Shown piece after piece: positions 29,275 to 31,095 of a DNA stretch of 44,411 bases; position 1 is the first letter of the stretch; every line of letters begins with the position of its first letter. Location: assembly GCA_903915465.1 (NCBI GenBank), contig CAIWTA010000122.1:1-44411 (forward strand), in the 5' to 3' direction. The translations under genes were made by a program, and so were the position numbers. The stretch is from an uncultured Bacteroidales bacterium (GTDB lineage: Bacteria; Bacteroidota; Bacteroidia; Bacteroidales; FEN-979). The notes beneath the pieces are model-generated. The model was not told the origin of the DNA, searched no databases, and saw nothing but the letters and a program-made list of their open reading frames with translations.

Positions 29275-29895
29275 TTATGACAACTTATAGAGATGAATGA
29301 GTTTCTTGGTATCAAAGAAGGGTTCAGCAAAATGATTTGCTAATGAGTAAACTTTATATTTTCCACTGACCTGCTTTAATTCTTCTTCTACTTCTCCTCC
29401 TTTAAGATAAAGAATTCCATTTGGAAATGTGTTAATCTCCTGCTTCAATAATTTGGAGCGGACCATCAGAATAAGTTCGGGAAGAGCAATAACGGCACGT
29501 CCGATGATAAAATGAAATTTCGATTCAACAGTCTCAAACCTTGAACATATTGGTATTACATTGATAAGTCCAAGTTCTTTACAAATATTTTCTACTACCT
29601 TGATTTTTTTCCCAATAGAATCAACCAATGTAAATTCTACCTGAGGAAAGTAGATTGCCAGTGGGATCCCTGGAAGACCTCCCCCTGTACCTGCATCCAT
29701 GATCCGGGTTCCGGGTTGAAATTTGAAAAATTTAGCAATACTCAGCGAAAACAGGAGGTGATGAATTTCAAGGTTGTCAATATCTTTGCGTGAAACCACA
29801 TTGATCTTGCTATTCCACTCCTTGTAAAGCATCTCCAGGTGCTGGAATTGAAGATGCTGAGAAGGATTGATTTCCGGAAAATAGTGTTCGATCAT
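29275..29895 (-). CDS. rsmG: 16S rRNA (guanine-527-N7)-methyltransferase
   Basis: RsmG methylates G527 in the 530 loop of 16S rRNA. The start is the ATG at 29895, giving 206 residues; the longer frame to 29928 begins with TTG inside a terminator hairpin. SAM motif I is MDAGTGGGLPGIPLAIYFP, followed by FTLVDSIGKKIKVVENICKE, the usual Asp motif II. NVVSRKDIDNLEIHHLLFSL is the family N-terminal helix region, and the FHFIIGRAVIALPEL segment is present. Loss of RsmG gives low-level streptomycin resistance in other bacteria. Confidence 0.95.
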   Translation of the reverse strand: MIEHYFPEINPSQHLQFQHLEMLYKEWNSKINVVSRKDIDNLEIHHLLFSLSIAKFFKFQPGTRIMDAGTGGGLPGIPLAIYFPQVEFTLVDSIGKKIKVVENICKELGLINVIPICSRFETVESKFHFIIGRAVIALPELILMVRSKLLKQEINTFPNGILYLKGGEVEEELKQVSGKYKVYSLANHFAEPFFDTKKLIHLYKLS

Positions 29896-29904
29896 CTTAC
29901 TTAA

Positions 29905-29942
29905 ATAAAACCGCCTGATCAGGTGCAAGGCCAGACCAGGCG
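29905..29942 (-). terminator. Intrinsic terminator after the bTHX gene
   Basis: On the minus strand CGCCTGGTC (29942-29934) pairs with GATCAGGCG (29920-29912) with one mismatch, around a 13-base loop, and GTTTTATTT follows. It separates the bTHX gene from rsmG. Confidence 0.65.
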
Positions 29943-29982
29943 ATTGAAATCATACGACCAACAGATTCACTGAAAAGAAGTA

Positions 29983-30336
29983 TTAACTTTCAGATGGTTC
30001 TTCTTTTGTATCGGGAAGTTCTGTTGTTTTTTTCCGTGTTTTGGGAGTTTTGGGTTTATCGGGGTCATTTTCCGCCTTCTCAGTGGTCTTCTTTGCTGCA
30101 GGTTTTTTGACGGTTTTCTTGGTTTCAAACATTTCTTCCGCTACTTCAGTTTGAACTACGACTTCAGCAGTACGATCTTCAATAAAAACTTTTTTTTCAA
30201 CGACTGGTTTTGGGGGTTTCGGTTCGAGAATTATTTTGGCAATTCCAACATTTTTTCTTTTCTTTCTTGCTCTTCTTACGCCGCAGGACCCAATAACGAT
30301 CTTGCCTCTTTTGGTTTTTTTATCTCCTTTTCCCAT
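29983..30336 (-). CDS. bTHX-like 30S ribosomal protein with long charged C-terminal tail
   Basis: The first 28 residues, MGKGDKKTKRGKIVIGSCGV and then RRARKKRK, closely resemble the small bTHX (Thx) protein of Thermus and Bacteroidota, which sits in the 30S head. Family members are usually 25-60 residues. Here the protein is 117 residues: residues about 29-117 add a Lys/Pro/Glu/Thr-rich, disordered tail with KKTVKKPAAKKTTEKAE and TPKTRKKTTELPD. Residue 18 is Cys where the aromatic Tyr or Phe is usual, and the family Trp/Lys positions are Val and Ile, so rRNA contacts may differ. A -7 element precedes it and a terminator follows. The assignment is good for the head; the tail is unexplained. 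Confidence 0.82.
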   Translation of the reverse strand: MGKGDKKTKRGKIVIGSCGVRRARKKRKNVGIAKIILEPKPPKPVVEKKVFIEDRTAEVVVQTEVAEEMFETKKTVKKPAAKKTTEKAENDPDKPKTPKTRKKTTELPDTKEEPSES

Positions 30337-30368
30337 AGTTGATAATTTTATTGATGGTTAACTCTTTG

Positions 30369-30376
30369 CAAAAGTA
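30369..30376 (-). promoter_or_regulatory. -7 element for the bTHX gene
   Basis: The minus strand reads TACTTTTG (TAnnTTTG), 33 bases upstream of the ATG. Confidence 0.6.
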
Positions 30377-30402
30377 GCAAAAAATGAATCCCAAACAGAA
30401 AC

Positions 30403-31095
30403 TCAGGATTTTATTCTGTCAAGAAATAATTTTTCAAGAATGGCGGGTTTCTTGAGGACGTTTTTTGTCCAGCTAATCTGTATATCCAACTTTTCATCTT
30501 CGGTTAACTGCCACTTAATATCAGATTTGCGTAGACGGTCTGTAAGGGCAAAGAGCAGGAGCGCTGCAGATACAGAGATATTTAAGCTCTCAGTAAACCC
30601 ATACATGGGGATCCTGATAAAACCATCTGCAAGGTTTAACGCAACCTGAGAAAGTCCTGCGAGTTCAGTGCCAAATATCAATGCAGTCTTCTTGTCAAGG
30701 GGGAGAGTTTCCGGAATAAAATCATTCTCGTGAGGTGTTGTAGCAATAACACGATACCCATCTGATTTTAGTTTTTTCAGACAAAATTCAGTATTATTTT
30801 CTTTTTCACAGTATTTAATAAGGTTTAACCATTTTGAAGAGCCCAGTGCAACATCGGGATTAACCTCATATTTATTCATGTTTTCGATAATATGGACATC
30901 CTGAATCCCGAAACAATCACAACTTCTCAGCACAGCACTCGCATTATGCGGTTGATAAATATCCTCTAAAACGATAGTGAGGTGGCGGGTTCTCTGAAGA
31001 ATTAGTCGTTCAAATTTGCTTTTCTTGTTAGAAGTAATAAATTCCTGAAGGTAAAATAAAAGCAGTTGCTTTTGAGTACTATCTGGTTCCATCAT
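30403..31095 (-). CDS. trmH: TrmH/SpoU-family tRNA ribose methyltransferase
   Basis: The 230-residue SPOUT enzyme carries the family motifs: LEDIYQPHNASAVLRSCDCF (motif 1, with the catalytic Asn and Arg), ALIFGTELAGLS (motif 2) and IRIPMYGFTESLNISVSAAL (motif 3), which forms the knotted SAM site. The size and the motif 3 context fit TrmH, which methylates the 2'-O of G18 in tRNA, but related rRNA or tRNA ribose methylases cannot be excluded. Two ATGs (31095, 31092) are adjacent and equivalent. The gene diverges from the membrane TPR gene. Confidence 0.88.
   Translation of the reverse strand: MMEPDSTQKQLLLFYLQEFITSNKKSKFERLILQRTRHLTIVLEDIYQPHNASAVLRSCDCFGIQDVHIIENMNKYEVNPDVALGSSKWLNLIKYCEKENNTEFCLKKLKSDGYRVIATTPHENDFIPETLPLDKKTALIFGTELAGLSQVALNLADGFIRIPMYGFTESLNISVSAALLLFALTDRLRKSDIKWQLTEDEKLDIQISWTKNVLKKPAILEKLFLDRIKS

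Follow-up and report, generated by a model that had tools for sequence, protein, structure and literature searches.

A long, predicted disordered tail on the ribosomal protein bTHX in a family of Bacteroidales

Introduction

Few ribosomal proteins in the textbook picture of the 30S subunit are as small as THX, but in the bacterial family discussed here it is roughly four to nine times as long and ends in a tail that appears to be under selection. The case that raised the question comes from a contig of an uncultured Bacteroidales bacterium (CAIWTA010000122.1, assembly GCA_903915465.1), of which positions 1 to 44,411 were analysed as a single stretch, hereafter the window. One of its genes encodes a protein that starts as a bTHX and then continues far beyond the point where the known protein ends. 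Is this a true ribosomal protein and, if so, what could such a tail be doing on it? A preliminary description, made from the letters of the DNA, proposed that the tail would project from the 30S head and could touch rRNA, mRNA or a factor, which is plausible. Tailed bTHX proteins suggest that bacterial groups differ in the outer layer of their ribosomes more than Thermus and E. coli show, and a tail carried there would probably escape high-resolution maps, because it is disordered.

The bTHX gene and its conserved head

The open reading frame named in the preliminary description is exact (Table 1), and its head is that of bTHX. Residues 1-26 match the NCBIfam equivalog model TIGR04560 (30S ribosomal protein THX) over its whole length of 26 positions, with 45.2 bits and an E value of 6.4e-11 in the genome search and 42.4 bits in hmmscan, the curated cut-off being 26 bits, and this is the only match to the model in the 4.07 Mb genome. 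The score against the Pfam family PF17070 (Thx) stays below the gathering threshold (24.1 versus 29.7 bits), though all 27 positions are aligned, and membership is claimed here on the equivalog model and not on PF17070. The best sequence match in the PDB is Thermus THX, and the PDB matches include no bTHX chain from Bacteroidota.

Table 1. Features of the bTHX locus in the window, with the evidence for each
Feature	Coordinates	Strand	Evidence
bTHX (30S ribosomal protein THX) gene, 117 aa, ATG start, TAA stop	29983..30336	-	open reading frame; TIGR04560
Conserved bTHX head, residues 1-27	30256..30336	-	TIGR04560 over its full 26 positions; alignment with Thermus THX; contact residues from PMC11711686
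Low-complexity polyampholyte tail, residues 28-117	29986..30255	-	family alignment A1; composition; AlphaFold2; pN/pS in relatives
Basic block A, KKTVKKPAAKK, residues 73-83	30088..30120	-	alignment A1
Basic block B, KPKTPKTRKK, residues 94-103 (family consensus KPKxxKxKKK)	30028..30057	-	alignment A1
Acidic C-terminal end, residues 104-117	29986..30027	-	composition
Candidate promoter -7-like element TACTTTTG (TAnnTTTG)	30369..30376	-	first base 40 nt before the ATG
TrmH/SpoU-family RNA 2'-O-methyltransferase, upstream neighbour	30403..31095	-	PF00588, E 1e-33; synteny
rsmG (16S rRNA m7G527 methyltransferase), downstream neighbour	29275..29928	-	TIGR00138 over cut-off; synteny

In the Thermus 30S head, THX touches h41, h42 and h43 of the 16S rRNA through K3, D5, R9/R10 and W14 (PMC11711686), and clusters with S9, S13 and S19 (PMC3734280). 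The window protein has K3, D5, K9 and R10 at these contact positions, with a Val in place of W14. Among its relatives K3, D5 and K9/R10 are conserved and site 14 is mostly I, V, F or N, but these relatives were extracted with a pattern that included K3 and D or N at position 5, so that only the residues of the window protein itself count for the contacts. Since every contact position except W14 holds an identical or similar residue, docking of the head in the 30S subunit is well supported by analogy. The preliminary description had also pointed to Cys18 in place of the usual aromatic residue, which is literally right but not distinctive: position 18 is F in 13, S in 12, Y in 8, H in one and C in one of the 35 bTHX proteins found in the family, and the site is therefore relaxed and Cys18 bears no inference.

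A chance match of the head can be rejected from the TIGR04560 scores and the syntenic relatives. A frameshift or a fused reading frame is likewise rejected, as the frame is open, begins with ATG where the start is conserved, and shows an architecture shared by 35 genomes. Judged by its sequence, the window protein is thus a genuine bTHX. The suggestion that annotation might pass over the tail is unlikely to hold, because the equivalog model scores over its cut-off and the protein lies in a single open reading frame.

Within positions 29275-31095 of the window, the gene is flanked on both sides by RNA methyltransferases, one of the RsmG and one of the TrmH/SpoU type. The order TrmH, bTHX and RsmG, followed by an OPT transporter, recurs throughout the family in all loci of sufficient length, and the adjacency of TrmH and bTHX extends to many other Bacteroidales and to one MAG labelled as Chlorobiota. 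The sequence TAnnTTTG is the consensus of the Bacteroidota -7 promoter element, and it starts 36-47 nt before the ATG in 27 of the 35 family members, compared with an expectation of about 0.24 based on how often it occurs in the window. Being well placed and recurrent in the family, this element suggests that the bTHX gene is probably transcribed from a promoter of its own.

Distribution of the long tail

The searched genomes of the GTDB family to which the window belongs encode one bTHX each in 35 of 37 cases, the two genomes with none being 85% and 88% complete. An alignment of relatives had been proposed as a check on tail conservation, and all 35 proteins do have a long tail, with total lengths of 96-256 residues and a median of 111. 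The bTHX loci of a wider sample of the phylum, which are best-scoring matches and hence non-random, encode 33-90 residues, mostly 33-51. Long tails were also found in many Bacteroidales MAGs (whole proteins of up to 236 aa, leaving out one odd reading frame described below) and in the Flavobacteriia Chryseobacterium lacus (91 aa), Paucihalobacter ruber (74 aa) and Aquimarina atlantica (82 aa), by a search that used the long-tailed alignment as its query and therefore favours such relatives. The tail had been suggested to be clade-specific, and it is indeed kept across the clade, but it occurs in other Bacteroidales and some Flavobacteriia as well, and other ribosomal proteins have comparable tails. 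As far as these genomes go, the long bTHX tail is a family-wide trait that recurs elsewhere, being neither unique to a species nor strictly confined to one clade.

The presence of bTHX itself is a separate matter. TIGR04560 matched 69 of the 395 phylum genomes and gave no match in a control Bacteroides genome, whereas Yutin et al. 2012 (PMC3353972) report Thx in nearly all Bacteroidetes, namely all but one; the sensitivity of a 26-residue model and real losses are both candidate causes of this difference. Two loci deserve a separate mention. The odd reading frame, L124 (JADFUR010000044.1), encodes 270 aa, in which a bTHX head is followed by a Cys-rich region with a weak match to an HNH endonuclease family (PF14279, E 0.018, below cut-off), and is either a true fusion or an artefact of assembly or frameshift. 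In another genome (G294), two near-identical bTHX copies with different tail ends (L075 and L076) lie close to the two ends of a single 3.86 Mb contig. They probably reflect a circular assembly left unclosed, with overlapping ends and an indel, and not a real duplication.

Composition and architecture of the tail

The preliminary description of the tail as long, charged and, by prediction, disordered holds well. About 90 low-complexity residues rich in Lys, Glu, Pro and Thr follow the head; after residue 28 they comprise 22% K+R, 20% D+E and 11% P, with a net charge of about +2, two aromatic residues and no Cys. AlphaFold2 predicts no secondary structure for the window protein, with a mean pLDDT of 57, which fits a disordered chain; the head, too, is left without structure when rRNA is absent. 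No credible known domain was found in the tail with Pfam or NCBIfam, PHROGs gave matches only at E 0.012 and above, all of them in low-complexity sequence, and the tail has no tandem repeats at the DNA level.

The tail has an order of parts in the family alignment A1: after the head come a variable stretch rich in Val, Glu and Pro, basic block A, basic block B and, in most members, an acidic end. The motif of block A is found in 19 of the 35 family tails, versus 3.0 in shuffled tails, and that of block B in 32 of them, versus a mean of 1.7 and a maximum of 7 in the shuffles, with K94 and K102 invariant in the alignment; these shuffle tests ignore shared descent, and relatedness inflates both enrichments. 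The last 12 residues of the window protein have a net charge of -4, and the end is net negative in 27 of the 35 members. KKPAAKK-like units had been noted in the plural, which slightly overstates the case, as KKPAAKK is present just once in this protein (residues 77-83). A second KKPAAKK protein in the same genome was considered and rejected, since neither the search for the exact coding pattern nor that with the whole 117-residue protein gave another match. Differences in tail length within the family are due largely to in-frame repeat expansion in the middle of the tail (L038, L040 and L061), which in L038 takes the form of repeated units of about 22 residues.

Selection on the tail

Such expansions, together with the wide range of lengths in the family and the similar tails of different sequence in other Bacteroidota, are what would be expected if the tail were a tolerated, near-neutral low-complexity expansion that grows by tandem duplication and has no function of its own beyond solubility. 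However, in nine gap-free pairs of relatives with tails of equal length, the tail has a pN/pS of 0.24-0.40, which falls below or at the low edge of neutral simulations of the same tails (medians 0.75-0.84, 1% quantiles 0.39-0.53). The pairs belong to other genera of the family, all sampled relatives being too far from the window's own tail, and the ratios are rough because of the large divergence at synonymous sites (pS 0.45-0.85). Constraint on the head is stronger still, with a pN of 0-0.06 in most close pairs. When one tail is slid out of register, pN rises to about 0.6, compared with 0.13-0.26 in register, and thus the similarity between tails is positional and goes beyond shared composition. 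Because its pN/pS lies under the neutral expectation, the tail behaves as constrained coding sequence, and meaningless read-through can be rejected on the same ratios. With block B also retained near the end of nearly every tail, a near-neutral expansion seems unlikely.

Proposed mechanism and other tailed ribosomal proteins

The explanation that we consider probable is that of a bTHX head docked in its 16S rRNA pocket and a disordered polyampholyte arm of about 90 residues at the surface of the 30S head, acting by general electrostatics and being one of several such tails on the ribosome of this clade, with bS16 and bL17 as further examples. In this mechanism, the tail would leave the rRNA pocket that holds the head and run toward the solvent side. 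Through weak, multivalent contacts, the Lys blocks may engage rRNA or neighbouring ribosomal proteins while the head is being assembled or the subunit moves, and the acidic end may limit non-specific sticking. The tail would work through general electrostatics and not through one dedicated partner. For its path, which we infer, a disordered surface arm with weak electrostatic contacts is the most economical reading. Counting against it are the presence of block A in just 19 of the 35 tails, a charge segregation that is marginal in the window tail (p 0.07), and the weakness of the length correlations among tailed proteins given below.

C-terminal, surface-exposed low-complexity tails are known on bacterial ribosomal proteins, and the list of Ntountoumi et al. 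2019 (PMC6821194) includes S2, S16, L25, S3, S6, L3, L10, L17, L19, L21 and L31, with THX absent. The bTHX tail shares with those of S16, L17, L21 and others its C-terminal position and its Ala/Glu/Lys-rich low complexity, but in proportion to a head of 27 residues the tails of bTHX are much longer. The genome of the window has two of the listed proteins in tailed form: bS16 (L161), whose 219-codon open frame has a long acidic, Pro- and Ala-containing C-terminal tail ending in EEPKQE, and bL17 (L162), whose 200-codon open frame has a basic-then-acidic tail ending in EPKEEKE. Long open frames for both proteins are found throughout the family and the order. Within the family, bTHX length is weakly correlated with the open-frame length of bL17 (rho 0.37, p 0.04) and not significantly with that of bS16 (rho 0.23). 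With bS16 and bL17 also tailed and the lengths weakly correlated, a general habit of tailed ribosomal proteins seems likelier than a device specific to bTHX. As a separate observation, the ends of the bS16 and bL17 tails are similar in style to the KEEPSES end of bTHX.

The tailed bTHX modestly extends what is known of ribosomal-protein tails. Thermus Thx (bTHX/Thx/S31e; TIGR04560, PF17070) corresponds to residues 1-26, with most rRNA-contact residues kept, but it is a tailless protein of 27 aa, to which the window protein adds about 90 residues while W14 and Y18 are replaced. The organellar forms (chloroplast bTHXc/PSRP4 and plant mitochondrial S31/bTHXm) have the same head with flanking extensions in solved ribosomes; however, their chains have 47-98 aa and the match to the window protein covers little past the head. 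We found no literature on a long bTHX tail; Yutin et al. 2012 may have seen such tails in their alignment.

A more specific role would be that of a docking arm dedicated to one factor, be it of initiation, hibernation, assembly, the membrane or the nucleoid, with block B as the binding site. The strong enrichment of block B in the C-terminal part of the tail and the constraint on the sequence itself, and not on composition alone, would fit such a role. Nevertheless, block B is a generic Lys cluster, no partner gene was found, and the neighbours encode RNA methyltransferases, a tetratricopeptide-repeat protein and a transporter, which makes a dedicated docking arm rather improbable. A bolder proposal is that of a clade-specific arm of the 30S head whose selected KPKxxKxKKK motif brings in a dedicated factor or adjusts how the head moves, with bTHX, bS16 and bL17 forming a disordered fringe on the ribosomes of Bacteroidales; we regard it as speculative and give it little credence.

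Finally, it is very unlikely that the tail serves outside the ribosome as a binder of nucleic acids or polyphosphate, in the manner of AlgP and other histone H1-like Lys/Ala/Pro proteins. Its KKPAAKK-type composition does resemble that of KPAK tails, and Lys-rich low-complexity regions have been linked to DNA binding in prokaryotes (PMC6821194). However, the bTHX head is a peptide that binds rRNA in the ribosome, and the tail is polyampholytic and lacks the strong net positive charge of H1-like DNA-binding tails. Such bTHX tails are often near-neutral: in 11 of the 35 family members the net charge does not exceed +2 and falls as low as -5, which is poor for DNA binding.
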